Below are positions 5,512 through 30,127 of a DNA stretch of 35,896 bases, piece after piece. The translations under genes were made by a program, and so were the position numbers. Source of the stretch: Azonexus sp. (GTDB taxonomy: Bacteria > Pseudomonadota > Gammaproteobacteria > Burkholderiales > Rhodocyclaceae); assembly GCA_030691385.1 (NCBI GenBank), contig JAUYEI010000087.1:1-35896 (forward strand). Direction: 5' to 3'. Positions within the stretch are counted from its first letter, which is position 1. Every line of letters starts with the position of its first letter. The notes below the pieces were generated by a model. The model did not search any database and was not told the origin of the DNA. It saw nothing but the letters and a program-made list of their open reading frames with translations.

Positions 5512-5544
5512 ACGGTCAACCGGAAATAATGGCCAAAATTGAAA
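5512..5544 (+). repeat. Dispersed 33-bp A-tract repeat, copy 1
   Basis: Starts with the core ACGGTCAACCGG, then AAATAA and a second A-rich tract ending TTGAAA. It lies in the 97-nt gap between the convergent PIN and lipoprotein genes. See the finding on the repeat family. Confidence 0.85.
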
Positions 5545-5569
5545 AGGGATGCGCGGCGAATCGGCCTCG

Positions 5570-6526
5570 CTACTTCCCGTCAATTTCATATATCTGCGAG
5601 AGCAACTGGCGGAATGCCGAGGTGTGCCCGGGTTCGGTCGGACGAACTACCCCATGTTCCTGCAGGACGGCGATCAATTTCATTGGCGCAACGCGCTTGT
5701 CCCCAACGATCTCGACATGCCCGGCCTGCACTTCGACGCGCGTCAGCCGGTGATCGTCTTCAACCATTGAATTGCGCTGTTCGGCCAGCGAGAAAATGTC
5801 GTCATCCTCGATGCAACGGCCGTTCTCCTCATAGCGACAGGTATCGCGCTCATCGGTATCGATTTTCAGATAGCTGGCGACTTGATCGGTCAATGCGCCC
5901 GGCTCGCGAATAAACCGCGACGAGTAGGTGATGTCGGCCCACTTCGGGCCGGTCGCCACGTAGCAACTCAAGGGCAGTAGCCCGAGCGTCAGCGGGTACA
6001 ACCAGGATTTGCCACAGGTGCGGGCGGCCTCTATTCCCGAGAATGGCCCCGAGACGGTCACCAGGCGCAAATCGACGTGCGGCGTGCGGGTCGATTCGGT
6101 CAGCGAGCCGCGGGCGATCAGCGCGCCCTGGCTGTGGCCGATCACCGTCACCTGCGGCACATGCGATTGCTCGACGAGTTGCTCGATTGCGGTCCTCAGT
6201 GCAGCCGCACTGTGCGCCAGTTTGGCCCGGTCATCGTAGGTAAAACAGGCCGATTGCTGACCGTGGAAGGCCAACACCTGAGCCAGACCACGAAACTGGC
6301 CCGACGAGCCGAAACAGCCATGGACCAGCACGTTGATCGGCTGGCTCGCATCAAAGCGCAGGCGCCGATCCGGATTGTCCGTGCACGGGCCGAGGCCGGG
6401 AATGTTGATGGTAACGCTGGGTGGCGATTGGTGGCCGGGTTCGAGATCGAGCGCATGCGTCGCCTGGCGCGTCGCGCAGCCACCAAGAAGACTGACGGCG
6501 ACCATGAAGAAACCGATGCGAACCAT
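5570..6526 (-). CDS. Lipoprotein with alpha/beta-hydrolase fold
   Basis: 318 residues. The N-terminus has a signal peptide ending in the lipobox LLGGC, so the mature protein is probably lipid-anchored at Cys17. A hydrolase core follows: NVLVHGCFGS (oxyanion region), then VTVIGHSQGALIA, which holds the nucleophile in GHSQG. A late histidine (VQAGHVEIVGD) could complete the triad. The substrate is unknown; an esterase or lipase is the safest description. Start: the ATG at 6526 has AGGTG 6 nt upstream; a GTG at 6535 is possible. The gene is bracketed by two same-direction copies of the 33-bp repeat (5512 and 6566). Confidence 0.8.
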   Translation of the reverse strand: MVRIGFFMVAVSLLGGCATRQATHALDLEPGHQSPPSVTINIPGLGPCTDNPDRRLRFDASQPINVLVHGCFGSSGQFRGLAQVLAFHGQQSACFTYDDRAKLAHSAAALRTAIEQLVEQSHVPQVTVIGHSQGALIARGSLTESTRTPHVDLRLVTVSGPFSGIEAARTCGKSWLYPLTLGLLPLSCYVATGPKWADITYSSRFIREPGALTDQVASYLKIDTDERDTCRYEENGRCIEDDDIFSLAEQRNSMVEDDHRLTRVEVQAGHVEIVGDKRVAPMKLIAVLQEHGVVRPTEPGHTSAFRQLLSQIYEIDGK

Positions 6527-6565
6527 GTTGGACACCTGACAGATTTGGCGGGAGCGCTGAATCCT

Positions 6566-6598
6566 ACGGTCAACCGGAAAAAATAGCCAAAATCAAAA
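6566..6598 (+). repeat. Dispersed 33-bp A-tract repeat, copy 2
   Basis: Core ACGGTCAACCGG followed by AAAAAA and AAAA tracts. It sits between the eutC stop and the start of the lipoprotein gene, both on the opposite strand. Confidence 0.85.
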
Positions 6599-6623
6599 TG
6601 ACGGGCGAACTTTTGTTTGTCCT

Positions 6624-8773: not shown

Positions 8774-8774
8774 G

Positions 8775-9545
8775 TCATTGGCGCCGGCGGAACACCCAGC
8801 TCTTGTCGTCGGATGCTTCGGGCGCGAAAGCGTAGCCGTCTTCGGCAAAATCCTTGAGCCCTTCCGGCTCGCTCAGCCGGTTCACCACGGCGTAGCGCGT
8901 CATCAGGCCGCGCGCCCGCTTGGCATAGAAACTGATGATCTTGTATTGGCCGTTCTTCCAGTCCTCGAACACCGGCTGGATGACCGTTCCATTGATCTTG
9001 CGGCCAACGGCGGCCTTGAAATATTCCTCGGAAGCGAGGTTGACCGCGACCGGCCGCGGCATGTCGGCCAGTTCCGCATTGATCGCCTTGAGCAGGCGCT
9101 CGCCCCAGTAGGCGTAAAGATCCTTGCCGGCCTTGTTGGCAAACTTGGTCCCCATTTCCAGGCGGTAAGGCTGCATGAGGTCGAGCGGCTTGAGGATGCC
9201 GTAGAGGCCGGACAGGATGCGCACACGTTGCTGGGCGAAGTCGAGATCGTCGGCACCCAGCGTTTTTGCCGCCAGCCCGTCGTAAACATCGCCGTCGAAG
9301 GCGAGCACGGCCTGCTTGGCATTTTCCGGCGTGAAGGGCAGCGACCAGTCGGCGTAGCGAGTGAAATTGAGCAGCGCCAGCGGGTCGGAGAGGTCCATCA
9401 AATTGGAAATATCGGCCGGCGACAGCTTGCGCAGCTTCTTGATCAAGGCTTCCGACTGCTTCAGATAGGCCGGCTGGGTGTGCGTGGCGACGTGCGGCGG
9501 GGTCTTGTAATCAAGCGATTTGGCGGGTGACAGGAAGATAAGCAT
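8775..9545 (-). CDS. yaaA: Peroxide stress protein YaaA (DUF328)
   Basis: 256 residues, the family length. YaaA lowers free intracellular iron and protects DNA and proteins during hydrogen peroxide stress in E. coli. The sequence starts [12 protein letters not shown], the diagnostic DUF328 opening, and contains [37 protein letters not shown]-like and [13 protein letters not shown] blocks. It is the first gene of the presumed yaaA-eutBC unit; the pairing with ethanolamine degradation is unusual. A perfect dyad (9576-9595) sits just upstream, between it and the divergent DUF2863 gene. Confidence 0.95.
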
Positions 9546-9575
9546 GGGCTGACTCGAAGGTTTGTGCTGTGCCTC

Positions 9576-9595
9576 ATTTTACCGGCTGGTAAAAT
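9576..9595. promoter_or_regulatory. Palindrome with back-to-back -10-like hexamers
   Basis: ATTTTACC-GGCT-GGTAAAAT is a perfect 8-bp dyad in the 77-nt divergent gap. Each arm reads TAAAAT outward, so it could hold both -10 boxes (for yaaA and DUF2863) or an operator shared by them. Confidence 0.45.
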
Positions 9596-9622
9596 TACAT
9601 CTTTGAATTTTCTGGACACCCG

Positions 9623-10795: not shown

Positions 10796-10818
10796 GTGCG
10801 ATGAAATGCTTGATTGAA

Positions 10819-10897
10819 ACGCAGAGACGCAGAGACGCGGAGAAAACCCCACAAAGATTTTCTCGTTGTATCTCTCTGCGTCTCCGCGTCTCCGCGG
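10819..10897. repeat. Inverted repeat built from short GACGC(A/G)GA units
   Basis: The left arm (10819-10843) repeats the unit ACGCAGAG / ACGCGGAG. The right arm (10872-10897) carries the same units on the other strand (TCTCTGCGTCTCCGCG). This is a widespread dispersed intergenic motif in environmental Proteobacteria. It could fold into a long hairpin in the DUF2863-bioA gap and act as terminator or mRNA stabiliser. There is no T-run. Confidence 0.7.
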
Positions 10898-10913
10898 TAA
10901 GGTTTTGACCTTG

Positions 10914-12266
10914 ATGCCCTCACCGTCGAACGCCGACTGGCTGGCGCGCAGCCAGGCCGCCGTCTGGCATCCGTGCACGCAGATGCAGCACCACGCGCAG
11001 ACCGGCAGGCCCGGCCACCTGCCGCTCGTGCCCATCGCCCGCGGCGAAGGCGCCTGGCTTTACGACTTCGACGGCAAGCGCTACCTCGACGGCATCAGCT
11101 CGTGGTGGACCAACCTGTTCGGCCACGCCAACCCGCGCATCAACGCGGCTTTGCGCGACCAGCTCGAAACCCTCGAACACGTCATGCTGGCCGGCTTCAC
11201 GCACCAACCCGTGGTCGAGCTTTCCGAACGGCTAAGCGCCCTGACCGGCGGCGCCCTCGGCCATGCCTTCTACGCCTCGGACGGCGCCTCGGCCACCGAG
11301 ATTGCGCTCAAGATGAGCTTTCACTACTGGCGCAACATCGGCCGGCCGGAGAAAGCCGAATTCCTCTGCCTGCAGGGCAGTTACCACGGCGAAACGGTCG
11401 GTGCACTGGCCGTCACCGACGTCGCCATCTTCAAGAATGCCTACGCGCCGCTCGTCCGCGCCGCCACGGTCGTCCCCTCGCCCGATTTCCGCCAGGCCGA
11501 AGCCAGTGAGTCGCCGGCCGATGTCGCCCGCCGCGCCGCTGCCGCACTGGAAGCTCACCTCGAAAAGCATGGCGAAAATATCGCCGCCCTCATCGTCGAA
11601 CCGCTCGTGCAAGGCGCCGCCGGCATGGCGATGTACGACCCCGAATACCTGCGCCTCGCCCGCCAGCTCTGCGACCGCTACGAAGTGCACCTGATCTGCG
11701 ACGAAATCGCCGTCGGCTGCGGCCGTACCGGCAGCTTCTTCGCCCACGAGCAGGCTGACATCCGCCCCGACCTCATGTGCCTGTCGAAAGGCATCTCCGG
11801 CGGCTACCTGCCGCTCTCCATCGTCCTGTCCAGCGACACCATCTACAACGCCTTCCTCGACGATTCGGTCGCCCGCGCCTTCCTCCACTCGCATTCCTAC
11901 ACCGGCAACCCGCTGGCCTGCCGCGCCGCGCTCGCCACGCTCGACATTTTCCAGTCCGACGACGTTCTCACGGTCAACCGGAAAAAAGCGCAAAAAATGA
12001 AATCCGCCCTCGCCCCGCTGGCCGACCACCCGCAAGTCAAACACCTGCGCCAGCGCGGCATGATCGCCGCCTTCGACGTCGCCACCGCCGACCCGCACTT
12101 CTCGCGCAAGTTCTACCGCGCCGCACTGGAGCGTGAAGCGCTGATCCGGCCGATCGGCAACACGGTTTACCTGATGCCGCCGTACATCGTCAGCGACGAG
12201 GACATTGACCATCTGGGCGCAGCGATCAAGGGCGCACTGGCAGATTCAATAGCTGGGCACATATGA
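10914..12266 (+). CDS. bioA: Adenosylmethionine-8-amino-7-oxononanoate aminotransferase
   Basis: Biotin pathway enzyme: transfers an amino group from SAM to KAPA to form DAPA, using PLP. 450 residues. Visible: VWHPCTQM near the N-terminus, FYASDGASATEIALKM, QGSYHGETVG, ICDEIAVGCGRTG with Asp263, the Schiff-base lysine in CLSKGISGG (Lys292), and the C-terminal VYLMPPYI. I start at ATG 10914 (MPSPSNADW); the upstream in-frame ATG at 10866 falls inside the inverted repeat. Odd: residues 353-363 (TVNRKKAQKMK) are encoded by a copy of the 33-bp dispersed repeat, with A-rich codons unlike the rest of the gene. Family members have a similar NR...A..M stretch here, so function is probably kept. Confidence 0.96.
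   Translation: MPSPSNADWLARSQAAVWHPCTQMQHHAQTGRPGHLPLVPIARGEGAWLYDFDGKRYLDGISSWWTNLFGHANPRINAALRDQLETLEHVMLAGFTHQPVVELSERLSALTGGALGHAFYASDGASATEIALKMSFHYWRNIGRPEKAEFLCLQGSYHGETVGALAVTDVAIFKNAYAPLVRAATVVPSPDFRQAEASESPADVARRAAAALEAHLEKHGENIAALIVEPLVQGAAGMAMYDPEYLRLARQLCDRYEVHLICDEIAVGCGRTGSFFAHEQADIRPDLMCLSKGISGGYLPLSIVLSSDTIYNAFLDDSVARAFLHSHSYTGNPLACRAALATLDIFQSDDVLTVNRKKAQKMKSALAPLADHPQVKHLRQRGMIAAFDVATADPHFSRKFYRAALEREALIRPIGNTVYLMPPYIVSDEDIDHLGAAIKGALADSIAGHI
11970..12002 (+). repeat. Dispersed 33-bp repeat, copy 3, inside bioA
   Basis: Core ACGGTCAACCGG, then AAAAAA and a second run of six A ending TGAAA; no indels against the consensus. It is read in frame as Thr-Val-Asn-Arg-Lys-Lys. Confidence 0.85.
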
Positions 12267-12660: not shown

Positions 12661-12900
12661 ATGAGCACGATGAACATTTCCCTACCCGATTCGCTGAAAA
12701 CCTTCGTCGACGAGCAGGTTAGCCAGCGCGGCTACGGCACGAGCAGCGAGTATGTGCGCGAGCTGATTCGCAAGGATCAGGATCGCCTGCAGTTGCGCGG
12801 GCTATTGCTGGCTGGCGCAGCTTCGGCGCCGGCGGTAGTAGCTGATGCGGCCTATTTTGCAGGCCTGCGCGCGCGTGTGGCCCAACAAACCGGGCAGTGA
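12661..12900 (+). CDS. parD: ParD-family antitoxin
   Basis: 79 residues. The N-terminal half is a ribbon-helix-helix: MNISLPDSLKTFVDEQVSQRGYGTSSEYVRELIRKDQ, the classic ParD/CC2985 signature with a beta strand that binds DNA and helices that dimerise. The C-terminal tail would wrap the toxin. ParD antitoxins neutralise ParE and autorepress their promoter. The parE start overlaps the parD stop (GTGA). The start is either the ATG at 12661 or the in-frame ATG at 12670; there is no clear ribosome site for either. Confidence 0.9.
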   Translation: MSTMNISLPDSLKTFVDEQVSQRGYGTSSEYVRELIRKDQDRLQLRGLLLAGAASAPAVVADAAYFAGLRARVAQQTGQ

Positions 12901-13226
12901 GGACCAAGCCGGTCATCCCGCGCGAACAGGCCAATCGGGATATCGACGAAACGCTTGCCTACTATCTGGGCGAAGGTTCGGAAAGCGCAGCCCTCGGCTT
13001 CATCGACACTCTCGAGCAGGCCTACGCACACATTGCCCGTCACCCGGCTTCAGGCGCAGTTCATTACGCCCACGAACTGAATCTCCCCGGCCTGCGTTTC
13101 TGGCCGCTCAAACGCTATCCTTACCTGGTTTTTTACGTCGAGCAGGAAACGCATATCGATGTCTGGCGCGTACTCAATGCTAAACGCGACATTCCCGCCT
13201 GGCTTCAGGAAAATAACGCCCCATGA
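12897..13226 (+). CDS. parE: ParE-family toxin (RelE/ParE superfamily)
   Basis: 109 residues starting with GTG that overlaps the parD stop. ParE toxins poison DNA gyrase. Features: IPREQANRDIDETLAYYLGEGSESAALGFIDTLEQAYAHIARHPASG, the two-helix hairpin of the family, then LRFWPLKRYPYLVFYVEQETHIDVWRVLNAKRDIPAWL, the beta-sheet core with the usual conserved Arg and the VWRVLHARRD-like strand. It ends with an ATGA overlap into bioF, so ribosomes leaving parE may re-initiate on bioF. It looks intact. Confidence 0.9.
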   Translation: MRTKPVIPREQANRDIDETLAYYLGEGSESAALGFIDTLEQAYAHIARHPASGAVHYAHELNLPGLRFWPLKRYPYLVFYVEQETHIDVWRVLNAKRDIPAWLQENNAP

Positions 13227-14398
13227 CCACCTCCCCGCTTGAAGACCGCCTGACCGCCGAACTCGCTGACATCGAAACCGCCGGCCTGACCCGCCGCCGC
13301 CGCGTGCTGGAAAGCCCCTGCGGCCGCATCGCCACGGTGGACGGGAAAAATCTGCTGAATTTCGCCGCCAACGATTACCTCGGGCTGGCCGGCAATCCCG
13401 GGATTGCCCGGGCGCTGGCTGACGGGGCAATGCAATGGGGCGCCGGCAGCGGGGCGTCGCATCTGGTCAGCGGCCATCTGGCGCCGCACGAGGCGCTGGA
13501 AAAGGAAATCGCCGCTTTCAGCGGCTTTCCGCGCGCCCTCACTTTTTCCACCGGCTACCTCGCCAACCTCGCCGTCACGCCGACGCTGGCCGGGCGCGGC
13601 GACGCGGTGTTCGCCGACAAGCTCAACCACGCCTCGCTGATCGACGCCATGCAGCAGGCCAAGGCCAACGGCGCCGACGTTCAGCGCTACGCGCACAACG
13701 ACGTCGCGGCGCTCGAAAAGCTGCTGGCCGCCAGCACCGCCGCGCACAAGGTCATCGTCACCGACGCGGTCTTCAGCATGGACGGCGACCTCGCGCCGCT
13801 GCCGCTGATCTTCGCGCTGGCCGAGCGTTACGACGCCTGGCTGGTCATCGACGACGCGCACGGCTTCGGCGTCCTCGGTGCACATGGCCAGGGCAGCCTC
13901 GCCCACTTCAACCTGCCCGCCTCACCGCGCATTTTGCTCATGGGCACGCTGGGCAAGGCGGCCGGCGTCGGCGGCGCCTTCGTCGCCGGTTCGGAAACCG
14001 CCATCGAATACCTGCTGCAAAAAGGCCGCAGCTACATTTTCACGACGGCCCAGCCGCCGGCGATCGCCTGCGCGCTGTCGAAGAGCCTGCAACTGATCAA
14101 AAACGGCGACGCCCTGCGTGCCAACCTGATGACCCGCATCGGCCAGTTGCGCGACGGGCTGGCCGGCCTGCCACTCACGCTGCTGCCATCACTGACGGCC
14201 ATCCAGCCGCTCATCGTCGGCGACAATGACGCCGCCGTCGCCCTCGCCAAAGCCTTGTGGGAGCGCGGCCTGTGGGTGCCGGCCATCCGCCCGCCGACGG
14301 TACCGAAAGGCACGGCACGCCTGCGTATTTCGGTTTCCGCCGCACACACTGAAGCCGACATCGACCAACTCGTCACCGCCCTGAAGGAACTGGCATGA
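13223..14398 (+). CDS. bioF: 8-amino-7-oxononanoate synthase
   Basis: PLP enzyme condensing pimeloyl-ACP with alanine to give KAPA. 391 residues. Motifs: NFAANDYLGLAG (47-58), GSGASHLVSGH, FSTGYLANLAV, DEV-type strand SMDGDLAPL, LVIDDAHGFGVLG with the PLP-ring Asp, and the Schiff-base lysine in MGTLGKAAGVGG (Lys245). Its ATG overlaps the parE stop and its stop overlaps the bioH ATG (ATGA both times), so expression is tied to both neighbours. No ribosome site of its own is evident. Confidence 0.96.
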   Translation: MTTSPLEDRLTAELADIETAGLTRRRRVLESPCGRIATVDGKNLLNFAANDYLGLAGNPGIARALADGAMQWGAGSGASHLVSGHLAPHEALEKEIAAFSGFPRALTFSTGYLANLAVTPTLAGRGDAVFADKLNHASLIDAMQQAKANGADVQRYAHNDVAALEKLLAASTAAHKVIVTDAVFSMDGDLAPLPLIFALAERYDAWLVIDDAHGFGVLGAHGQGSLAHFNLPASPRILLMGTLGKAAGVGGAFVAGSETAIEYLLQKGRSYIFTTAQPPAIACALSKSLQLIKNGDALRANLMTRIGQLRDGLAGLPLTLLPSLTAIQPLIVGDNDAAVALAKALWERGLWVPAIRPPTVPKGTARLRISVSAAHTEADIDQLVTALKELA

Positions 14399-15108
14399 CC
14401 GCTCCCCTCGTTTTCCTCCCCGGCTGGTGCCTGGGCAGCACCCCGCTCAATGCCACGGTGAACCGGATAAATGGCCAGATTTTCGAATTGCCCGGCTACG
14501 GCAGTGCGCCGCTGATTGCCGATTTCTACACCGCGGCCGACGATATCGCCACCCGCCTGCAAGCCGGCACGACGCTGGCCGGCTGGTCGCTCGGCGCCCA
14601 ACTGGCGCTGGCCGTCGCCGCCCGCCATCCGGACAAGGTCGGCAAGCTCATTCTCGTTGCCGGCACCACTTCCTTCGTCCAGCGCGACGGCTGGCCGCAC
14701 GCCATGGCCCCGGCCATGCTGGCCGAGTTCGCCGCCAGCATCGCGGCCGATGTCGAAGCCATGCTGCCGCGCTTCGTCGGCGGCTTCAACCGCGGCGATG
14801 CCCGCGCCAAGACCGTCACCCTCGAACTGCTCCAACTGGCCGACCCGCGCCCGTCCGGCGACGTGCTGGCGACCGGCCTCAACTGGCTGCGCGACATCGA
14901 CCTGCGCGACATCGCGCCGCAGGTCAAGGCACCGACCCTGCTCATCCACGGCGCCGCCGATCCGCTCATGCCGCTCGGCGCCGCCGAAGCCCTCGCCGCC
15001 CTGATTCCCGGTGCGAAACTGGCAGTTTTCGACGACTGCGCCCACGCCCCCTTCATGTCCAGGCCGGACGATTTCGTCGCCACCGTGCACCAATTCCTGA
15101 ATGACTAG
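14395..15108 (+). CDS. bioH: Pimeloyl-ACP methyl ester carboxylesterase
   Basis: Hydrolyses the methyl ester of pimeloyl-ACP, ending the BioC-BioH route to the pimeloyl chain. 237 residues with an alpha/beta-hydrolase fold: LVFLPGW (oxyanion), GWSLGAQLA with nucleophile Ser65, HGAADPLMP with Asp189 and CAHAPF with His217. Shares eight bases with bioC. Odd: residues 21-31 (TVNRINGQIFE) fall on a diverged copy of the 33-bp repeat, between the oxyanion strand and LPGYG. The segment is 20 residues long between GW and LPG, about as in other BioH proteins. Confidence 0.92.
   Translation: MTAPLVFLPGWCLGSTPLNATVNRINGQIFELPGYGSAPLIADFYTAADDIATRLQAGTTLAGWSLGAQLALAVAARHPDKVGKLILVAGTTSFVQRDGWPHAMAPAMLAEFAASIAADVEAMLPRFVGGFNRGDARAKTVTLELLQLADPRPSGDVLATGLNWLRDIDLRDIAPQVKAPTLLIHGAADPLMPLGAAEALAALIPGAKLAVFDDCAHAPFMSRPDDFVATVHQFLND
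14455..14486 (+). repeat. Dispersed repeat, copy 4 (diverged), inside bioH
   Basis: ACGGTGAACCGG (one mismatch in the core), ATAAA instead of six A, then a degenerate second tract. It is one base shorter than the other copies and is read in the same frame (Thr-Val-Asn-Arg). Confidence 0.6.
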
Positions 15109-15862
15109 ACCTTCCAAGGCGCGTATCCGGCAATCCTTCGAGCGCGCCGCCCCGACCTACGACAGCGCCGCCGACATCCAGCGTCGCATCTGCACGCAAC
15201 TGGCCGACGGCCTGCCGGCCATCGCCCCGGCCCGCCTGCTCGATGCCGGCTGCGGCACCGGCTTTGCCCAGGCCGACCTGCTCGCCCGCTTCCCGGAGGC
15301 CCACGCCGTCGCCCTCGACCTCTCGCCGGCCATGCTCGACCGGGTCAGCGCGCCGTGCTGCCGCATCGCCGGCGATCTCGAACACCTGCCACTGGCCGAC
15401 GCCAGCCTTGATCTTTACTGGTCCAGCCTCGCCGTTCAGTGGTGCGATCTGGCCACGGCGCTGCGCGAAGCCCACCGCACGCTGCGCCCGGCCGGCCTTG
15501 TTGCCCTGGCCAGCCTTGGTCCGGCGACCTTCCACGAGCTTCGCCACGCCTTCGCCGAGGTCGACCACTACCGCCACACGCTGAGTTTCCACAGCGTGGA
15601 CGAAATCCGCAAAATCGCCGTCAATCTCGGGTTTGCTACGGTCAACCCGAAAAAAGGCACAAAAATCGCACACTACGCCGACTTCAAGACGCTGCTTCGC
15701 GCCGTCAAGGCCATCGGCGCCAACCAGCTCGGCGACGGCCGGCGCACCAGCCTCATGAGCCGCGCTACCTTCCTGCGCGCCGAAGCCGCCTACGAGCAGC
15801 TGCGCACCCCGGCCGGCCTGCCGCTGACCTACGACGTGATCTACCTTTACACCAGCAAATGA
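15101..15862 (+). CDS. bioC: Malonyl-ACP O-methyltransferase
   Basis: SAM-dependent methyltransferase that caps malonyl-ACP so that fatty-acid synthesis can build the pimeloyl chain. 253 residues. RIRQSFERAAPTYDSAADIQR is the BioC opening; motif I is LLDAGCGTG (46-54), then VALDLSPAML, and LYWSSLAVQWC is the characteristic LxxSNLALQW-type block. The C-terminus HYADFKTLLRAVKAIGANQ is also typical. Residues 180-190 (TVNPKKGTKIA) are encoded by a copy of the 33-bp repeat without change in the expected length. Confidence 0.94.
   Translation: MTRPSKARIRQSFERAAPTYDSAADIQRRICTQLADGLPAIAPARLLDAGCGTGFAQADLLARFPEAHAVALDLSPAMLDRVSAPCCRIAGDLEHLPLADASLDLYWSSLAVQWCDLATALREAHRTLRPAGLVALASLGPATFHELRHAFAEVDHYRHTLSFHSVDEIRKIAVNLGFATVNPKKGTKIAHYADFKTLLRAVKAIGANQLGDGRRTSLMSRATFLRAEAAYEQLRTPAGLPLTYDVIYLYTSK
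15638..15670 (+). repeat. Dispersed 33-bp repeat, copy 5, inside bioC
   Basis: Exact core ACGGTCAACC, then CGAAAAAA, and a second A5 tract. No indels against the consensus. It is read as Thr-Val-Asn-Pro-Lys-Lys. Confidence 0.8.
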
Positions 15863-20083: not shown

Positions 20084-21403
20084 GTGTTCAACAGCCTGAA
20101 AAAACTGTTCAGCGGAAAATCCGGGCCAGCCAGCGCTCCCCAGCCCGTCGCGGCAGCGCCAACGACCACCGTAGCGACCCAGTTTCTTCGCCGCGAAGCT
20201 GTTTTCGACCGCAACAATCGCCTGTCCGGCCATATTTTTACGCTGCAGGAATCGACAATACTGGCCGACGCCGATGATGCCTGCCAGCACGGCTTTGACG
20301 AAACCCTGCTCGACACGCTGAACACCAGCACCGACGCCTGGAATACCAGCCTCGCCTTCATTCCGCTCAGTTCCGCCAGCCTCGACCTGGCTGCGGTCGA
20401 CCGCCTCAAATCGTCAAATATCGTGCTGCTCGTCCAGTTGGCTGCCGACGCCGAAGCGGACATCGTTTGCGAAGCCATCGACCGGTTGCACGAGCGTGGT
20501 TTACTGATCGGTGTTTTCCGCCAGCCGAAGAACCCGGCTTTTGCCAGGGTCATCCAGGTGGCCGACTATGCGGCCATCGATATCGGCGCCAACGAAGCCG
20601 ATACCGCCCGTGATTTTTCCGCCGCGGTACGGGCCAGTGCGGCAGAACGCCCCAAGAAGCTGCTCGCCTGCAATGTCGAAACGCTCGACGACCTGCGCTT
20701 CTGCCAGCAGTGGCACTTCGACAATTTCCACGGAAAATTCGCCAGTTCAGCCTCGGGCAGCCGCTCTGAAAACAGTGGCGACCCGCACAAGGCCCTGTTG
20801 CTGAACATCATGCGCCTGGTCCAGGGCGATGCCGAAACAGCCGAAATTGCAGCGGCGATGAAGCAGGACCCGCTGCTCAGCTTCCGTATCCTGCGCTACT
20901 TGAACTCCCCGGCCCTTGGGCTGAGCAACCACATCGACTCGCTGGCTCAGGCCCTGGTCATTCTTGGACGCCAGCGCCTGACCCGCTGGCTTTCGGTGCT
21001 GCTTTTTTCCGTGCGCGACCCACATTTCGGCGACTGGCTGCTGGTCGAAAATGCGCTGACCCGCGGCCGCCTCATGGAAGTCCTCGGCGAACAGTCGATG
21101 CCGGGCGTCGGGCATGACCCGCTGTTCCTGACCGGGATTTTTTCCTGCCTGGGCGAATTGCTGCACCGGCCGCTGGCGGAAACCCTGAACGACATGCTGC
21201 TGGCCGATGACATCAGGAACGCCCTGCTTCAACGCAGCGGCCCCTATGCCGCGCTGCTGGCAGTGGCCGAAGCGAGTGAAGACTTCGATCTGCCACGCAT
21301 GAGAAGCACGGCGCTGGCAGCCGGCGTTGCCCCGGAAACCGTCAACCGTGCTCTGCTTGCCGCCACGGCCTGGGCCAGTGAAGTGACCGAATACTGGGAA
21401 TAG
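20084..21403 (+). CDS. EAL/HDOD signalling protein with degenerate EAL domain
   Basis: 439 residues in the two-domain YuxH-like layout. Residues about 30-200 resemble an EAL fold (RREAVFDRNNRLSGHIF corresponds to the RQPIFDR opening), but no EAL, DDFG or other metal-binding motif is present, so it should not cleave c-di-GMP. Residues about 225-400 are an HDOD domain: LLNIMRLVQGDAETAEIAAAMKQDPLLSFRILRYLNSPALG, the diagnostic block. These proteins act as signalling scaffolds. Start: GTG at 20084 with GGGAG about 6 nt upstream; an ATG at 20033 in the terminator is rejected. Confidence 0.85.
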   Translation: MFNSLKKLFSGKSGPASAPQPVAAAPTTTVATQFLRREAVFDRNNRLSGHIFTLQESTILADADDACQHGFDETLLDTLNTSTDAWNTSLAFIPLSSASLDLAAVDRLKSSNIVLLVQLAADAEADIVCEAIDRLHERGLLIGVFRQPKNPAFARVIQVADYAAIDIGANEADTARDFSAAVRASAAERPKKLLACNVETLDDLRFCQQWHFDNFHGKFASSASGSRSENSGDPHKALLLNIMRLVQGDAETAEIAAAMKQDPLLSFRILRYLNSPALGLSNHIDSLAQALVILGRQRLTRWLSVLLFSVRDPHFGDWLLVENALTRGRLMEVLGEQSMPGVGHDPLFLTGIFSCLGELLHRPLAETLNDMLLADDIRNALLQRSGPYAALLAVAEASEDFDLPRMRSTALAAGVAPETVNRALLAATAWASEVTEYWE

Positions 21404-21482: not shown

Positions 21483-22712
21483 ATGGACATTCGTCTTTTC
21501 TTCGCTGCCCTCTGCCTGAGCCTGTTGCTGCCGGCCCACGCCGCCGACCAATCCCTGCAAGCCTGGATCGATACCGCGCTGCCAGGCACCGTCCTGCGCC
21601 TGCCGCCCGGCACCTACCGCGGCCCGGCCAGCATCACCAAGCCGCTGACCCTGGAAGGTAACGGCAAGGTCATTGTCGATGGCGGCGGCAAGGGTACGGT
21701 GCTGACCATCAAGGCCGACAGGGTGACGATACGCGGCCTGACCCTGCGCGCCAGCGGCGATTCGCATGACGCCATCGACGGCGCCATCATGGTGGCCGAA
21801 GGGAGCGGGCTGCTCATCGAAAACAACGTGATCGAGGATGTGTTGTTCGGCATCTCGCTGCACCGGACGACCGACAGCATCGTGCGCCACAACCGCATCC
21901 GCTCGCGCCCCGGCGATTCAGCCGACCGTGGCGACGGCCTGCGCCTGTGGTACAGCAGGGGCAACCGCATCGAGAACAACGACATCGCACAGATTCGCGA
22001 CATCACGATCAGCAATTCGCCACGCAACCGCTACACCGGCAACACCATCCGCGACAGCCGGCGTGCCTTCAATTTCCTTTTTTCGCATCGCAGCCTGGTC
22101 GACCGTAACCTTCTCGAAAAAAACTCGACCGGCATCATCGCGCTCAATTCGGATGGCCTGATCATCCGCAACAACCGCATCCTGCACGCCATGGACGCCT
22201 CCGGCGCCGGCATCGCGCTCAAGGAAACATCGGCGGCGCTGATCGTCGGCAACGAAATCGTCCATTGCGCCCACGGCATCATGGCGGATTCGCCGATGGA
22301 CGCGATCAACCGCATCGTCTTCATCGACAACCTGATTGCCCACAACATCACCGGCATCTACTTTTATGGTGCCAAGGGCGGCCACATTGCCATTAACAAC
22401 ACCTTTCGGAGCAACCTGTGGCCGGTCACCATCATCGGCGATGGCGATCCGATGAACGATACCTGGTGGGGCAACACATGGGATACCTACGAGGGTTTTG
22501 ACCTTGATGGCGACGGTTTCGGCGACCGGCCGCACGAACTGCACGCTTACGCTGATCGGTTGTGGATTGAAACGCCGAGCGTCACATTCTTCCGCAACTC
22601 GCCAGTGCTTGAACTGCTCGACTTTCTCGAACGGCTGGCGCCTTTCTCGGCGCCTTCCCTCATCCTGCGCGACACGGCGCCGCGCATGCGGCCGGCCAAA
22701 ACCTATAACTGA
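21483..22712 (+). CDS. NosD-like periplasmic right-handed beta-helix protein
   Basis: 409 residues. Signal peptide MDIRLFFAALCLSLLLPAHA, then a long run of parallel beta-helix turns with N-rich corners (IENNVIEDV, VRHNRIRS, IENNDIAQI, IRNNRILHA, VGNEIVHC, FIDNLIAHN). The C-terminal part WWGNTWDTYEGFDLDGDGFGDRPHEL and SPVLELLDFLERLAPFSAPSLILRDTAPR is the NosD signature. NosD serves assembly of the copper sulfide centre of nitrous oxide reductase. No nosZ, nosF, nosY or nosL is nearby, so this is either an isolated paralogue or has another task. The C-terminus overlaps the convergent cysB by 10 bases. Start: ATG 21483; a GTG at 21465 is possible. Confidence 0.88.
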   Translation: MDIRLFFAALCLSLLLPAHAADQSLQAWIDTALPGTVLRLPPGTYRGPASITKPLTLEGNGKVIVDGGGKGTVLTIKADRVTIRGLTLRASGDSHDAIDGAIMVAEGSGLLIENNVIEDVLFGISLHRTTDSIVRHNRIRSRPGDSADRGDGLRLWYSRGNRIENNDIAQIRDITISNSPRNRYTGNTIRDSRRAFNFLFSHRSLVDRNLLEKNSTGIIALNSDGLIIRNNRILHAMDASGAGIALKETSAALIVGNEIVHCAHGIMADSPMDAINRIVFIDNLIAHNITGIYFYGAKGGHIAINNTFRSNLWPVTIIGDGDPMNDTWWGNTWDTYEGFDLDGDGFGDRPHELHAYADRLWIETPSVTFFRNSPVLELLDFLERLAPFSAPSLILRDTAPRMRPAKTYN

Positions 22713-23644: not shown

Positions 23645-23648
23645 TTTA

Positions 23649-24009: not shown

Positions 24010-25701
24010 ATGTACAAATACGATGCCATCGACCGCCAGCTCATCAACGAGCGCGTCGACCAGTTCCGCGATCAGGTCCGCCGCTGGAAAGCCGGCGAGC
24101 TGAGCGACGACGAATTCCGCCCGCTGCGCCTGCAGAACGGCCTCTACATCCAGCGCCACGCGCCGATGTTCCGCATTGCCGTGCCTTACGCCATGCTGAA
24201 TTCGGCCCAGCTACGCAGGCTCGGCCAGGTCGCCAGCAAGTATGACCGCGGCTACGGCCACTTCACGACGCGCCACAACCTGCAGCTCAACTGGCCGAAG
24301 ATCGAGGACGTGCCGGAGATTCTTGCCGAGCTGGCTGAAGTCGAGATGCACGCCATCCAGACCTCAGGCAACTGCCTGCGCAACATCACGACCGACCAGT
24401 TTGCCGGCGTTGCGGCCGATGAAGTGATCGACCCACGCCCGCTGGCTGAAATCCTCCGCCAATGGACGACTTTCCACCCGGAATTCGCCTTCCTGCCGCG
24501 CAAGTTCAAGATCGCCATTTCCGGTACGAAGGAAGATCGCGCCGTGACCTGGTTCCACGACATCGGCCTGCAATTGCAGGAACAGAACGGCGAAGTTGGC
24601 TTCCGCGTCATCGTCGGCGGCGGCCTCGGCCGGACGCCGATCCGCGGCCAGATCGTTCGCGAATTCCTGCCCTGGCAGCATCTGTTGACCTATTGCGAAG
24701 CCATCCTCCGCGTCTATAACCGCCAGGGCCGCCGCGACAACGCCTACAAGGCGCGCATCAAGATTCTCGTCCAGGCGCTCGGCGTCGAAGCCTTTGCCCA
24801 ACTCGTCGAAGAAGAATGGGCGCATGGCAAGGATGGCCCGGCCACCCTCACGCAAGCCGAGTTTGACCGCGTCGCCGCCCATTTCAGCGCGCCGGCCTAC
24901 GAAACGCTGAGCGCCGACGATGCCGGCCTGAGCGAAAAGCTGGCATTTGAAAAATCGTTCAAAAACTGGGTTGACCGTAGCACTCACCCGCACAAGGTGC
25001 CGGGCTACGCCGCCGTCACGCTGTCGCTCAAAAAGCACGGCGTTGCACCGGGCGACATCACTTCCGAGCAGATGGCCGCTGTTGCCGACCTTGCCGACCA
25101 GTACAGCTTCGGCGAACTGCGCATCAGCCACGAGCAGAACATCATCCTGGCCGACGTCAAGCTGGCCGACCTCCACGAGGTCTGGCAAAAGGCCAAGGCG
25201 GCCGGCCTGGCGACGCCGAACACCGGCCTGCTGACCGGCATGATCTGCTGCCCGGGCGGCGATTTCTGCGATCTGGCCAACGCCAAGTCCATCCCCATCG
25301 CCACCGCCATCCAGGCCCGTTTCGACGATCTCGACTACCTGTTCGACATCGGCGAAATCGACCTCAACATCTCCGGCTGCATGAACGCCTGCGGCCACCA
25401 CCACGTCGGCCACATCGGCGTGCTCGGTGTCGACAAGAACGATTCCGAGTTCTACCAGGTCACGCTGGGCGGCCGTCAGGGCAACGATGCCAAACTCGGC
25501 AAGGTCATCGGCCCGTCGTTCGCGGCCGATGAAATGCCGGATGTCGTCGACAAGATCATCAAGGTTTACATCGAGAGCCGTCACGCCGACGAGCGTTTCC
25601 TCGACACCTTCGATCGCATCGGCATCGACCCGTTCAAGAACCGCGTTTACGAAGGCCGCGCCCACGGCAAGGCCAAAGTCGCACAACAGGAGGCCGCATA
25701 A
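24010..25701 (+). CDS. cysI: Assimilatory sulfite (or nitrite) reductase, siroheme hemoprotein
   Basis: 563 residues. Reduces sulfite to sulfide with siroheme and a [4Fe-4S] cluster. The two duplicated ferredoxin-like/siroheme halves are visible: RGYGHFTTRHNLQLNW and NCLRNITTD in the first, HPHKVPGYAAVTLSL and GELRISHEQNIILADV in the second. The cluster ligands are in CCPGGDFCDLA and SGCMNACGHHHVG. AAGGACG lies 6 nt before the ATG. No cysJ flavoprotein is linked, so electrons may come from ferredoxin or from another partner. It heads cysI-DUF934-cysH, divergent from cysB; the sulfur context favours sulfite over nitrite. Confidence 0.93.
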   Translation: MYKYDAIDRQLINERVDQFRDQVRRWKAGELSDDEFRPLRLQNGLYIQRHAPMFRIAVPYAMLNSAQLRRLGQVASKYDRGYGHFTTRHNLQLNWPKIEDVPEILAELAEVEMHAIQTSGNCLRNITTDQFAGVAADEVIDPRPLAEILRQWTTFHPEFAFLPRKFKIAISGTKEDRAVTWFHDIGLQLQEQNGEVGFRVIVGGGLGRTPIRGQIVREFLPWQHLLTYCEAILRVYNRQGRRDNAYKARIKILVQALGVEAFAQLVEEEWAHGKDGPATLTQAEFDRVAAHFSAPAYETLSADDAGLSEKLAFEKSFKNWVDRSTHPHKVPGYAAVTLSLKKHGVAPGDITSEQMAAVADLADQYSFGELRISHEQNIILADVKLADLHEVWQKAKAAGLATPNTGLLTGMICCPGGDFCDLANAKSIPIATAIQARFDDLDYLFDIGEIDLNISGCMNACGHHHVGHIGVLGVDKNDSEFYQVTLGGRQGNDAKLGKVIGPSFAADEMPDVVDKIIKVYIESRHADERFLDTFDRIGIDPFKNRVYEGRAHGKAKVAQQEAA

Positions 25702-26210
25702 TGGCGCAACTGATCAAACAAGGCATTGCTGCGGTCGACACCTGGAATACGCTAGAAATCGCTGAAGGCGAAACGCCGGAAACGGTCGCCCTGCCGGCCG
25801 GCGACGTCATTTTCCCGCTCGCCGTCTGGCAGGCGCGCAAGGCCGAAATCATCTCCTGCCACAAACGCATCGGCCTGCTCATCCAGCCGGATGAGCGCGT
25901 CGAGGACGTCGCCGCCGATCTCCATTATTTCGTGGTAATCGCCGTTTCCTTCCCGAAATTCGTCGATGGCCGCGGCTATTCGACAGCCAGCCTGCTCCGC
26001 CAGCGCTACCACTATCAGGGCGAATTGCGCGCCGTCGGCGACGTGCTGCACGACCAGCTTTTCTACATGCAGCGCGTTGGTTTCGACAGCTATGCGCTGA
26101 AGGACGGCAAGAACGCGGTGTACGCCATCGAAGCCGGCTTCAGCCCGTTCAGCGATGCCTACCAGGCTTCGACCACCCAGCCGCAACCCCACTTCCGCCG
26201 CCGCGCCTAG
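25701..26210 (+). CDS. DUF934 protein of the sulfite reductase operon
   Basis: 169 residues, COG3749/DUF934. Family stretches: LPAGDVIFPLAVWQARKAEI, IGLLIQPDERVEDVAADLHYFVVIAVSFPKFVDGRGYSTASLLRQRY, and GELRAVGDVLHDQLFYMQRVGFDSYALKDGK. The FPKFVDGRGYS-LLRQR block is the hallmark. Members sit almost always beside cysI or cysH and have been proposed to aid electron supply to sulfite reductase when cysJ is missing; the role here is inferred from context. The ATG overlaps the cysI stop (TAATG) and has GGAGG upstream. Confidence 0.92.
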   Translation: MAQLIKQGIAAVDTWNTLEIAEGETPETVALPAGDVIFPLAVWQARKAEIISCHKRIGLLIQPDERVEDVAADLHYFVVIAVSFPKFVDGRGYSTASLLRQRYHYQGELRAVGDVLHDQLFYMQRVGFDSYALKDGKNAVYAIEAGFSPFSDAYQASTTQPQPHFRRRA

Positions 26211-26218
26211 GAACAGCC

Positions 26219-26938: not shown

Positions 26939-26956
26939 CCCGTTCAAGACAATCAG

Positions 26957-26982
26957 AACCCGGCTTCGAGCCGGGTTTTTTG
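26957..26982 (+). terminator. Intrinsic terminator after cysH
   Basis: AACCCGGCT-TCG-AGCCGGGTT, a 9-bp perfect stem with a following T-run. The flanking text (TTCAAGACAATCAG) recurs before the second terminator at 27109. Confidence 0.92.
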
Positions 26983-27039
26983 TTGGCTAACGCTACAATG
27001 TTGGGCGGATACAGTATCTACGCCATAAGCATGATTTCC

Positions 27040-27072
27040 ACGGTCAACCGGAAAAAATGGGCGAAAATGAAA
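27040..27072 (+). repeat. Dispersed 33-bp repeat, copy 6
   Basis: ACGGTCAACCGG, AAAAAA, TGGGCG, AAAA, TGAAA; one mismatch to the best consensus. It sits between the two related terminators after cysH. Confidence 0.88.
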
Positions 27073-27108
27073 TGACTCTGACCCTTTGACTCTGTTCAAG
27101 ACCATCAG

Positions 27109-27133
27109 AACCCGGCTTCTGGCCGGGTTTTGA
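27109..27133 (+). terminator. Second, duplicated terminator-like hairpin
   Basis: AACCCGGC-TTCTG-GCCGGGTT with a short T4 tail. The preceding TTCAAGACCATCAG almost repeats the text before the cysH terminator, so about 45 bp appear duplicated around repeat copy 6. Confidence 0.7.
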
Positions 27134-27182
27134 TGGCTGGCGCCTGGATGGTCAAGGAGATTTACGTCGGAATCAGGATTGC

Positions 27183-27215
27183 TACGGTCAACCGGAAAAA
27201 ATGGGCAAAAATGAA
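27183..27215 (+). repeat. Dispersed 33-bp repeat, copy 7 (consensus-like)
   Basis: ACGGTCAACCGG followed by AAAAAA and AAAAA tracts and TGAAA; it matches the majority base at every position. Preceded by GGATTGCT, shared with other copies. Confidence 0.88.
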
Positions 27216-27258
27216 AGGTTTCGGTGCCCTTTCGACCTCCAACATCGAGGCAAACAGC

Positions 27259-27843: not shown

Positions 27844-27904
27844 CCCTGAGCCGAACCATGATTATCACACGTCATTAATCAGAGCGATCAGGCTCGACTG
27901 ACAT

Positions 27905-29227
27905 CTAGTCCAGCAGCAAGTGCTGCCCTCCAATGTTTCCAATTTCCGCGTCAGGCACCCCGGTTTCCCGCGCAAACTCGGGCCAGTTTTTGACGGCCTC
28001 CCTGACCTTCCTGATCACCCTCGGCGCCGTGCCGATCTTGAAGCGGTCGGCTTCGGCCAGCAGGTCGGCTTCTGTGAAATTCCTGAATTTCCCATTCACC
28101 GACATGAGGTGCTGGTGGGTCCATTCGCCGGCCGGGTTGTGGGCGAAGGTGATGTCGTAGGCGGGGGACAGAGCCCAGGTTTCGTCGGCTTTCAGGCGAA
28201 ACGAGATGTTCTTGGTGTGGTCGTCGCAGTTGCGGGCCATGACGTTGAAGGCCATGCGCCGGAAGGCCTCTTCCTTCTGCTCGTAGGGCAGCCCGAGTTT
28301 TTCCATGACCAGGAACAGCTGCGAGTAGGCGTTGGTGCCCTTTTTCTTGTAGTCCAGGTGGTCCATGGCGCACAGGGTTTGCATGTGGTGGCGGACGGCG
28401 CCGTCTTCGCGGTCGAAACGGCGCGTCATGAAGTGCGCCCGGCCGTTTTCTTCGAGCAGCCGGCATTCCATCATCTCGATGCCGGCCGCCGTGGCCATCA
28501 GGTAATAGGCCTGCTCGATGCGGCCATAACCGCCCGAGGCGCCGAGTTCGAGGTCTTTGCCGATGCCGTCGAACTTGAGCAGCCAGTGCTCGAAGCCATC
28601 GCCGGCTTCGAACTGCCCGGAGCGCACTTCGTTGGTCCTCCTGTTCCAGGCGATGACGGCCTTGGCGCGCGCCCCGCCGGCCGAGGTGCCAACGTCGATG
28701 ATGCTGCGCAGAGCGGCGTCGGTCTGCTCGTCGTCTTCAATCGTCCCGGCGACTGCCTTGCGCGCTTCGCTGACCAGATCGCTCAGTTCGATGGGCGTCG
28801 GCTTCTGGCGAATGGGCCCGCGCCCCGGCTTGAAAACCATGGCGCCCATGGCGCGGTTGCCCATGTAGGCCAGGCGGTCGATTTCAGAAACCTGATTGGC
28901 CGGGATACCGCGGTCGGCCATGTATTTGTTGATCAGGGCGTTGCCGAAATCGTCCGGCAGGGCATCGCTGAGCAGCGCGGGCAGCGCCTTGTAGGTTTCC
29001 CGCGGCAAATCCGTGAATATGTAAGGCTCTTCGCGCAGCGGCATGCGCAGGGGCGCAGGCTCGATCCCTTTGGCAATGAAGCTCGGAGCGTAGGCAAAGG
29101 CGTAGAAGCCATAGGCAGGATCGAGGGCGACGGCGCCCATCAACAGGCCCCAGAGATGGACTTCCACGCGGTCGACGTGCTTGTACGGCGCAGCGCGGGA
29201 ACGACGGTGCTTGGAAGGAGTAGCCAT
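27905..29227 (-). CDS. hipA: HipA-family Ser/Thr kinase toxin
   Basis: 440 residues, the usual length. HipA toxins phosphorylate a cytoplasmic target (glutamyl-tRNA synthetase in E. coli) and induce dormancy. Visible: VHLWGLLMGAVAL at the N-terminus, the Gly-rich loop TSAGGARAKAVI (181-192) with HWLLKFDG following, the catalytic loop RNCDDHTKNISF (Asp335, Asn340) and the metal-binding AYDITF (Asp358). All catalytic motifs are intact. It follows hipB by 20 nt on the same strand. The N-terminus begins with a basic tail (ATPSKHRRSRAAPYK) that E. coli HipA lacks. Confidence 0.93.
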   Translation of the reverse strand: MATPSKHRRSRAAPYKHVDRVEVHLWGLLMGAVALDPAYGFYAFAYAPSFIAKGIEPAPLRMPLREEPYIFTDLPRETYKALPALLSDALPDDFGNALINKYMADRGIPANQVSEIDRLAYMGNRAMGAMVFKPGRGPIRQKPTPIELSDLVSEARKAVAGTIEDDEQTDAALRSIIDVGTSAGGARAKAVIAWNRRTNEVRSGQFEAGDGFEHWLLKFDGIGKDLELGASGGYGRIEQAYYLMATAAGIEMMECRLLEENGRAHFMTRRFDREDGAVRHHMQTLCAMDHLDYKKKGTNAYSQLFLVMEKLGLPYEQKEEAFRRMAFNVMARNCDDHTKNISFRLKADETWALSPAYDITFAHNPAGEWTHQHLMSVNGKFRNFTEADLLAEADRFKIGTAPRVIRKVREAVKNWPEFARETGVPDAEIGNIGGQHLLLD

Positions 29228-29247
29228 GGGAGTCTTTCAGGCGCGCG

Positions 29248-29565
29248 CTATTTGGCCGGCGACGACTTGACGCGGGTAGACGTTGCCCGCAGCCGTTCGC
29301 GACGGGCGCGAACCATGTTCAGGGGATTGATCGTGGCGGTCGGCGCCAGGAGGGTCAGCCAGTCTTCCCGATCAAGCGCGCGAACCACGGAGAGCAGGCT
29401 GGCGGTACTCGACCCCGTGCCCGCCTCCAGATTCTGCAGCGCCCGGCGACTGATCCCGGCCCGTTCGGCCAGCAGGGTCTGGTCGATGTTTCGGCTCAGC
29501 CGGAGCTTTTTTACCTGCTCGCCCAGGACCGCTTCGAGTTCGGCGAGCGTACGACTGGTTTGCAT
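29248..29565 (-). CDS. hipB: HipB-like XRE-family antitoxin
   Basis: 105 residues. A Cro/C1-type helix-turn-helix: LGEQVKKLRLSRNIDQTLLAERAGISRRALQNLEAGTGSSTASLLSVVRAL, residues about 14-65. HipB binds HipA and represses the operon through palindromic operators. The C-terminal tail is basic (MVRARRERLRATS), which may add contacts to DNA or to HipA. GGAG lies about 7 nt before the ATG. It is first in the operon, as usual, with the operator-rich region upstream. Confidence 0.92.
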   Translation of the reverse strand: MQTSRTLAELEAVLGEQVKKLRLSRNIDQTLLAERAGISRRALQNLEAGTGSSTASLLSVVRALDREDWLTLLAPTATINPLNMVRARRERLRATSTRVKSSPAK

Positions 29566-29584
29566 GTCAAATTCTCCACAAGAC

Positions 29585-29723
29585 GCACTATTACGCGCTT
29601 AGTTTAAATATTAGACAACTAAGCGCATCTTTTGACGCACCATATCATAAATTTAATATTCTGTAACGCGCATAATATTGCGCTAAATAAACAATATTAC
29701 ATATAACGCACATAATATTGCGC
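29585..29723. promoter_or_regulatory. AT-rich operator array upstream of hipBA
   Basis: A 140-bp stretch much richer in A+T than the rest of the window. GCGCATAATATTGCGC (29668-29683) and GCACATAATATTGCGC (29708-29723) are near-identical and exactly 40 bp apart. A 9-bp inverted repeat GCGCTTAGT...ACTAAGCGC spans 29595-29626. Further GCGC-type pairs lie at 29585-29598 and 29623-29638. The form GCGC-N8-GCGC has the half-site spacing of E. coli HipB operators (TATCC-N8-GGATA), though the bases differ. Likely HipB-binding sites and the hipBA promoter. Confidence 0.65.
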
Positions 29724-30127
29724 TTTCGTGAAATAAATTATGTATCAATCAGTGCAACCCGTACAGCGAACCTGGCATTAAACCCTCCGTTCACGCTGCA
29801 GCAAGACCGAATCGCCGCCTGAGTGCTGGTTTTCGGCCATAAACGTGATTGCCACGGTCAACCCGAAAAAACGGCCAAAATTGAAATCCATGAAACCCCT
29901 TTCGCCCCCGACCGCTGATGCCGATGCCAGCCGGACTGGATACTGGCGGACCGCCGGAGGAGGCGCAGGCAATGAAGCGTTTCGGGAGTGCGTAGAATTA
30001 CCCGGACTGACTTATCATGCAGACTTCGTAACGGATTTTGACTCGACCGTACCTCACACAAAAACAGAAACGCCGGGCGCGCCTATGCTTTCGCCCATCA
30101 CGCTTCCGAACCCCCAGCCCCCGACTC
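29724..30127. other. Intergenic stretch before the penicillin-binding protein gene
   Basis: About 400 nt between the hipBA operators and the penicillin-binding protein. Apart from repeat copy 8 (29853-29885) I see no gene with family resemblance, no hairpin with a T-run, and no RNA motif that I recognise. An open frame across it (from 29845) starts inside the repeat and has no recognisable domain. Confidence 0.6.
29853..29885 (+). repeat. Dispersed 33-bp repeat, copy 8
   Basis: Exact core ACGGTCAACC, then CGAAAAAA and AAAA tracts ending TTGAAA. The 15 nt upstream (CATAAACGTGATTGCC) resemble those before copy 6 (CATAAGCATGATTTCC), so the similarity extends beyond 33 bp. Confidence 0.88.

Follow-up and report, generated by a model that had tools for sequence, protein, structure and literature searches.

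The window, by which we mean the whole stretch of 35,896 nucleotides of Azonexus DNA analyzed here, contains a set of bio-like genes and, scattered within and between its genes, a repeat with a short conserved core followed by two AT-rich tracts, which we interpret as a candidate DNA uptake sequence. An earlier note on this DNA had listed eight copies of the repeat, all of which were recovered, six at exactly the positions given and two shifted by one nucleotide (27184 and 29854, not 27183 and 29853). The exact 10-mer ACGGTCAACC is present in seven of them, and the eighth, at 14455, has one mismatch. The excess over chance that had been claimed was also borne out, with 13 matches at up to one mismatch against 1.77 expected, a number that none of 100 shuffles reached. 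Scored with a position weight matrix (PWM), the window holds 15 sites, 12 on the plus and 3 on the minus strand. Two plus-strand copies are intergenic, at 5512..5544 (PWM score 52.9) and 6566..6598 (52.2), and three more on the same strand were called intergenic, at 27040..27072 (50.5), 27184..27216 (52.8) and 29854..29886 (56.8, the highest score in the window).

The bio-like genes carry four copies, all on the plus strand: at 11970..12002 (PWM 50.0) in an aminotransferase class-III gene (bioA-like, 10866-12266), at 13334..13366 (30.6, a weaker copy with one mismatch in the core) in a bioF-like gene (13223-14398), at 14455..14487 (40.5, also with one core mismatch) in an alpha/beta hydrolase gene (bioH-like, 14395-15108), and at 15638..15670 (44.6) in a methyltransferase gene (bioC-like, 15101-15862). 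A copy that was overlooked in the earlier note, as were several weaker ones, lies at 24946..24978 on the minus strand (33.3), within a nitrite/sulfite reductase-like gene (24010-25701). It consists of an exact ACGGTCAACC with its AT tracts, read from 24978 to 24946, and the statement that all copies point in the same direction was thus mistaken. This copy and the one in the bioA-like gene align without gaps in a complete relative, OU015322.1 (hereafter G240). The five remaining sites are weak candidates: 141..173 (plus, 22.4, called intergenic); 9015..9047 (minus, 18.1, GCGGTCAACC), which falls within a YaaA-like gene (8775-9545) although the gene finder placed it between genes; and three in coding sequence, at 20393..20425 (plus, 23.7), where the motif is absent from the aligned G240 position, 22074..22106 (minus, 18.3) and 25731..25763 (plus, 22.1). 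Between the bioA-like gene and the bioF-like gene, at 12661-13226, the window also encodes a ParE-like toxin; the frame before it matches ParD below the threshold. A HipA-like gene (27905-29227) is flanked by two motif copies.

We characterized the motif in samples of 436 kb from the window's own genome (G000; 3,448,501 bases, 99.93% complete, the window being its contig 126), 1.08 Mb from G240 and 120 kb from a third genome, G236. The G000 stretches came from contigs with exact copies, and the G240 sample comprised 54 stretches, evenly spaced except for one 400-kb block around bioH. The matrices were scored on their own training sequences against a reversed-sequence control, with about 5% control hits by design. 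The overall consensus was gatTgCT(A/G)-CGGTCRAC-cgg-WWWWWW-nnggcc-WWWWWW, in which the core CGGTCRAC is nearly invariant. The individual matrices gave gatTgCta-CGGTCAAC-CGG-aaaaa-nnggcc-aAAatt for G000, tTgcTg-CGGTCaAC-CGg-aaaAa-nnggcc-aAaatt for G240 and cag-CGGTCGAC-nncnnnn-aaa-nggcc-aattTc for G236, and the motif occurs in dialects represented by ACGGTCAACC, TGCGGTCAAC and GCGGTCGAC. The tracts after the core occupy matrix columns 23-28 and 34-39, with centers about 11 bp apart, the first being weak in G236. The two phased A-tracts of the earlier note were therefore correctly spaced, but, since A and T interchange within them, they are better described as AT tracts than as strict A-tracts. 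By the 12-mer ACGGTCAACCGG, the consensus is strong: in the G000 sample it occurred 46 times exactly, compared with 31 times for its 36 single-mismatch variants summed. TGCGGTCAAC was 54-fold over composition in G240 and showed no enrichment in G232, a relative classed as motif-free; a matrix trained on G232 drifted to codon periodicity, indicating no motif there. Because the core is nearly palindromic, about a quarter of the G240 sites score on the opposite strand too, and the 565 raw hits collapse to 448 sites. In A. fungiphilus (locus L162, genome G288), pairs of exact sites on opposite strands were seen at C1:10383-10426, 12769-12812 and 68447-68490; the palindrome CGGTCGACCG is common to the sites of a pair and is flanked by AT tracts in both directions, which makes them double-headed.

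The motif is abundant throughout the genome and balanced between strands. The 18-mer ACGGTCAACCSGAAAAAA, at up to three mismatches, had 538 copies in G000, 273 forward and 265 reverse, compared with 2 + 2 for the reversed pattern, and the spaced pattern CGGTCRACNNNNNWWWNNNNNNNWWWW had 649 exact copies (333/316 by strand), compared with 1 for its control. Once double-scored sites were removed, the matrices gave 149 sites in the G000 sample, 448 in G240 and 81 in G236. The density in G000 (149 sites in 436 kb) leans high because its stretches were taken from copy-bearing contigs. In G240, all 54 stretches contained sites, at about one per 2.4 kb, from which a rough extrapolation gives about 1440 per genome. 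The repeat thus has the hundreds to thousands of copies, on both strands and genome-wide, that are characteristic of uptake sequences. Since the strands are balanced genome-wide, the predominant orientation within the window is a matter of local chance. The replichore comparison was made in one genome, G240, with GC skew as a proxy: the 448 de-duplicated sites numbered 92 plus and 91 minus where the skew was positive and 133 and 132 where it was negative (P=1.0; P=0.61 for the raw matrix hits).

Most sites lie in coding sequence, although less often than random positions do: 90 of 149 (60%) in G000 and 311 of 448 (69%) in G240, compared with 81%, with intergenic shares of 31% and 25% compared with 15%. 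These calls were made with a simple codon-usage gene finder, which overlooked at least one gene, the YaaA-like gene in the window, so some of the sites called intergenic may be coding. Sites within genes were oriented with and against the gene in 52 and 38 cases in G000 and in 177 and 131 cases in G240, and certain reading frames were favored. Inverted core pairs 10-60 bp apart were few (5 in 1.08 Mb of G240).

The bio operon allowed us to follow individual copies across relatives. We compared 48 named genomes, classed by spaced-pattern count as motif-rich (28), weak (3) or motif-free (17); the named-genome count took in 49 of 62 loci, with L158 left out. The bioF, bioH and bioC sites aligned without gaps in all 48 genomes. 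The core at these three sites was intact in 24, 23 and 21 of the motif-rich genomes, in 1, 1 and 1 of the weak genomes, and in 2, 0 and 0 of the motif-free genomes; the bioF site is the one at 13334..13366, at which the window itself has a mismatch. Since the sites are gap-free and the core is present or absent depending on the genome, these copies were gained and lost by point mutation, and they thus arose through substitutions in sequence that was already there, genes included, as uptake sequences do.

A wider comparison was made between G000 and G240, which are 82% identical in the alignments. These spanned 61 of the 149 G000 sites, the other 88 being unspanned mostly because the G240 counterpart lay outside the sample. 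The spanned sites were gap-free in 51 cases (84%), compared with 94% for nearby control windows, and a single one had an indel of at least 20 nucleotides, with the core present in both genomes there. Between G240 and the motif-free G232, 47 kb in common spanned 18 sites, 15 of them gap-free, which is too few to decide. The core CGGTCAAC of G000 was kept in G240 at 34 of 43 places, compared with 3594 of 11125 (32%) for permuted 8-mers. In the tracts, A/T positions that had changed were still A/T in 22 of 37 cases, compared with 1486 of 10201 over all alignments (P=4e-10), whereas in the spacer this was so in 2 of 22. The AT tracts are under selection for A/T richness and not for a particular sequence.

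Among the sampled genomes, the motif was seen only in part of the Azonexus/Dechloromonas group (the genus Azonexus as used here includes Dechloromonas). With CGGTCRACCNNNAAAAA at up to one mismatch, 35 of 60 genus genomes had 31-532 matches and 25 had 3-20, while reversed controls gave at most 17. Across 399 genomes of the order, the spaced pattern matched exactly 47-652 times in the six that belong to the genus and at most 8 times in any of the 393 others; in a class sample of 276 genomes, the 275 others had at most 10, and 194 family genomes of other genera had at most 17 with three mismatches allowed. By exact spaced pattern, the motif-rich named strains include A. fungiphilus DSM 23841 (474), A. 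hydrophilus ZS02 (378), D. denitrificans ATCC BAA-841 (354) and D. hortensis MA-1 (338), whereas counts were low in D. agitata is5 (3), D. hankyongensis XY25 (3), Dechloromonas sp. CZR5 (7) and A. hydrophilus DSM 23864 (18). On a tree of the 48 genomes, including a few outgroups, based on about 2.6 kb of the bio operon with the motif columns included, the motif-rich label required 11 changes, compared with a mean of 15.5 for shuffled labels, of which 8 of 500 were as low. The distribution is therefore patchy, with several losses or gains. The label itself depends on the pattern used, as L176/G227 had 12 matches to the spaced pattern (motif-free) and 81 to CGGTCRACCNNNAAAAA at up to one mismatch. 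Borderline cases are the three weak genomes and G112 (45-47). Two records titled Desulfobulbus sp. (L179) and Gammaproteobacteria bacterium (L130) contained an Azonexus-type bioH at 67% and 88% identity, and are probably mislabelled or contaminated bins.

An uptake sequence requires a carrier with competence and type IV pilus genes, and these are present. Among the 60 genus genomes, we found comEC in 56, dprA in 59, ComEA-family matches in all 60 (54 over the cut-off) and a PF16732-type minor pilin in 56. In G000, the comEC frame spans 782 aa without stops, and a pilin cluster encodes PilY1, FimT/GspH, a further N_methyl pilin (PilV-like by position), PilW, PilX and the PF16732 pilin. The best structural match of the G000 FimT model was FimU of P. 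aeruginosa (E 7e-6, TM 0.57), which confirms the family only. Elsewhere in the genus, the comEC Competence domain lay in two pieces separated by about 33 kb in G200 (C33:109525-144033) and G241 (C1:2218607-2251879), divided at the same domain position (1-28/29 and 26-267) with the short part below the cut-off in G200, which suggests that a large element was inserted in comEC of both. The comEC matches of G216 and G217 start at domain positions 26-27, and in the motif-free G232 (L207, C1:1952000-1966000) the domain appeared as two overlapping pieces in different open frames, so that its comEC looks broken. Read by eye, comEC integrity did not visibly separate motif-rich from motif-free genomes. 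Because competence genes are present in motif-free relatives too, the presence of the machinery cannot explain the patchy distribution. The switch between the two states is likely to reflect either a changed receptor or a loss of competence followed by slow decay; H. ducreyi, as described in an excerpt of PMC1626085, combines a weak uptake signal sequence (USS) with broken competence genes.

Taken together, the abundance, equal strands, absence of replichore bias, origin by substitution, placement in coding sequence, consensus, dialects, patchiness and competence genes form the profile of an uptake sequence, and we consider, with a probability of roughly 80%, that part of the Azonexus/Dechloromonas group uses the repeat as its DNA uptake sequence. 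The earlier note had proposed that equal strands together with competence genes would favor this interpretation, and both were found; its second-ranked suggestion, a likeness to the Pasteurellaceae uptake signal, has gained support. Several observations weigh against it. We know of no uptake or transformation experiment in Azonexus or Dechloromonas, and our literature searches turned up none. The competence genes are equally present in motif-free genomes, and some motif-rich genomes lack a recognizable part of the set: no ComEA match over the cut-off was found in G240 or G213 (both estimated to be 100% complete) and no dprA match in G217 (99% complete), while comEC is split in G200. A pilin group that tracks the motif was not found among five motif-rich and five motif-free genomes, in a survey of 127 prepilin-like proteins from pilin-gene clusters that had 136 N_methyl matches and left out 7 pilin genes of G216, G232 and G248; the minor pilins were of unlike types with no correspondence to the motif classes, and the largest group, of 39 proteins, mixed PilA- with PilE-like pilins. 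Compared with solved structures, the PF16732 pilin of G000 matched other pilins, with no ComP among 20 matches. As for the motif itself, the 10-mer ACGGTCAACC in G000 (58 exact, 70 single-mismatch in total) and TGCGGTCAAC in G240 (135 exact, 249 single-mismatch) did not outnumber their summed variants, although exact TGCGGTCAAC still outnumbers each individual variant, and the core form CGGTCGAC was kept between G000 and G240 at 16 of 44 places, no better than the 32% of controls. Finally, gene layout and ten scanned proteins gave no clear sign of mobile DNA in four 20-kb stretches poor in the motif, in which no search was aimed at integrases. Efflux genes of the RND and Cus types lie in L213; L222 encodes a chaperonin, a symporter and also a sensor kinase; the one protein scanned in L258 was flagellar; and L231 resembles an rpoBC-ribosomal operon in gene lengths and order only.

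Among the other explanations, an intracellular DNA-organizing protein, such as a factor for nucleoid structure or segregation that requires sites at intervals of a few kilobases, deserves the most attention but seems unlikely. A 30-bp layout of core and AT tracts would suit a bending protein, sites are spread over all the sampled G240 stretches, and no competence gene tracks the motif. Known segregation sites are, however, unlike sites as dense as one per 2.4 kb that lie mostly in genes and have a very strong consensus, and the near-absence of the motif in relatives with the same bio-gene order would require that such a system was lost repeatedly. The roughly twofold intergenic excess, and the fact that the five best window copies were called intergenic, could point to operators or transcription terminators of a large regulon; we regard this as improbable, since most sites are inside genes in both orientations and inverted core pairs are few, although a secondary role for some intergenic copies is possible.

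The earlier note had also raised two readings that fared poorly. A mobile mini-repeat of the repetitive extragenic palindrome (REP) or miniature inverted-repeat transposable element (MITE) kind, spread by insertion, would account for the many similar copies with some intergenic excess and for gap-free alignment to G240 being somewhat rarer than in controls (51/61 vs 94%), but it fails at the sites tested, where three coding copies align without gaps in 48/48 genomes, 17 of them motif-free, also against orthologues that lack the motif, and where the one spanned site of 61 with a large indel has the core in both genomes; we consider it very improbable. The oriented chromosome motif that the earlier note preferred, similar to the FtsK-orienting polar sequences (KOPS) or Chi, drew on the window, in which the plus strand carries all but one of the ten strongest copies. 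It can practically be dismissed, given that the strands are equal genome-wide (273/265 in G000, 225 plus and 223 minus in G240), are unrelated to GC skew in G240, and are shared by 84 of 158 neighboring sites in the contiguous 400-kb block. A by-product of codon usage or mutation bias is equally hard to credit: the reading-frame preference of in-gene copies is in its favor, but G232 lacks the motif at an equal G+C content (58.0%, compared with 57.8% for G240, in 400 kb sampled) and reversed-sequence controls are near zero.

If the repeat is an uptake sequence, its core CGGTCRAC, or more fully (T)(G/A)CGGTCRAC, would be bound by a receptor of the type IV pilus used for competence, with a minor pilin as the likeliest candidate. 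Both AT tracts downstream, about one helical turn apart, might then help the DNA to kink or melt so that it could enter the outer-membrane pore, by analogy with what has been proposed for the Pasteurellaceae USS. The cell would favor DNA of its own kind over foreign DNA, and as the favored fragments recombine, point mutations that create the motif could be driven to high frequency throughout the chromosome. More speculatively, and on balance rather doubtfully, the Azonexus system may be a separately evolved third one with a receptor in the FimT/FimU/PpdA class of minor pilins, in which case a (G)CGGT core with two AT tracts would represent one ancient recognition mode, or a physical need for kinking at the pore, and not two unrelated inventions; the near-palindromic core would make some sites double-headed and usable from either side.

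We found no report in the open-access literature of uptake sequences in Rhodocyclales or Dechloromonas, or of an overrepresented USS in Betaproteobacteria. Among the matches listed for Azonexus with uptake sequence, the only relevant one was a Neisseria paper citing the description of the genus; natural competence together with Dechloromonas gave only a rat gut microbiota study; and the matches listed for the 10-mer ACGGTCAACC had unrelated titles. An uptake sequence in Azonexus is therefore probably new, as judged from open-access literature without subscription papers or preprints. A strong preference for particular sequences in DNA uptake has been stated for species in two families, the Pasteurellaceae and the Neisseriaceae (PMC7811141, excerpt). 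A third case, if true, would be in environmental bacteria and would place the Pasteurellaceae layout in a betaproteobacterium, and its comparison with the others could test whether uptake specificity evolved once or repeatedly and what role the AT tracts play. The genus offers a natural experiment, with several dialects and with relatives that have and lack the motif, among them named strains of either kind (D. denitrificans ATCC BAA-841, D. hortensis MA-1 and A. fungiphilus DSM 23841 against D. agitata is5 and D. hankyongensis XY25); the uptake reading predicts that motif-rich strains are naturally transformable.

Compared with known systems, the repeat resembles KOPS and Chi, the strand-biased 8-mers of FtsK and RecBCD, in being a short dispersed chromosomal motif, but unlike them it has no strand bias (G240, P=1.0). 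Nor does it show the spread by insertion and the empty sites in relatives that mark REP or MITE elements. The DNA uptake sequence (DUS) of Neisseriaceae occurs in dialects, is missing from some members of the family (PMC3630211, excerpt) and has ComP as its receptor (PMC12616744, excerpt); high copy number, dialects within one taxon and motif-free members are thus common to both, but the DUS is continuous, has a CTG core and lacks AT tracts, a form that does not appear in the Azonexus matrices, and the two motifs are unrelated. The closest parallel is the Pasteurellaceae USS, which has two dialects, Hin AAGTGCGGT and Apl ACAAGCGGT, and a strong consensus (PMC1626085, excerpt); both dialects contain GCGGT and carry a pair of AT segments after it, which in Hin lie 12 bp apart (PMC1626085 and PMC12616744, excerpts). 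The Azonexus repeat likewise has two AT segments on the same side of the core, about one helical turn apart (11 bp here, with the first tract weak in G236), an inner core of GCGGT in two dialects, those of G240 and G236, copies that also arise in genes by point mutation, dialects and, by its 12-mer, a strong consensus. It differs in belonging to a distant, betaproteobacterial lineage, in the ACGGT that stands in place of GCGGT in the dialect of the window itself, and in a near-palindromic core with few inverted pairs; its core matches neither 9-mer of the USS, as ACGGTCAACC, TGCGGTCAAC and GCGGTCGAC share only (G)CGGT with them. Moreover, the Azonexus core extends as CRAC(CGG), with the first AT tract 7 bases after CGGT instead of about 1 as derived for the USS from numbers in the excerpts, so that the AT tracts are shifted by about half a helical turn. 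We therefore place the repeat as a candidate uptake sequence that is neither USS nor DUS, and the best reading of its sequence is that it would be a third, apparently undescribed case with a layout like that of the Pasteurellaceae USS.

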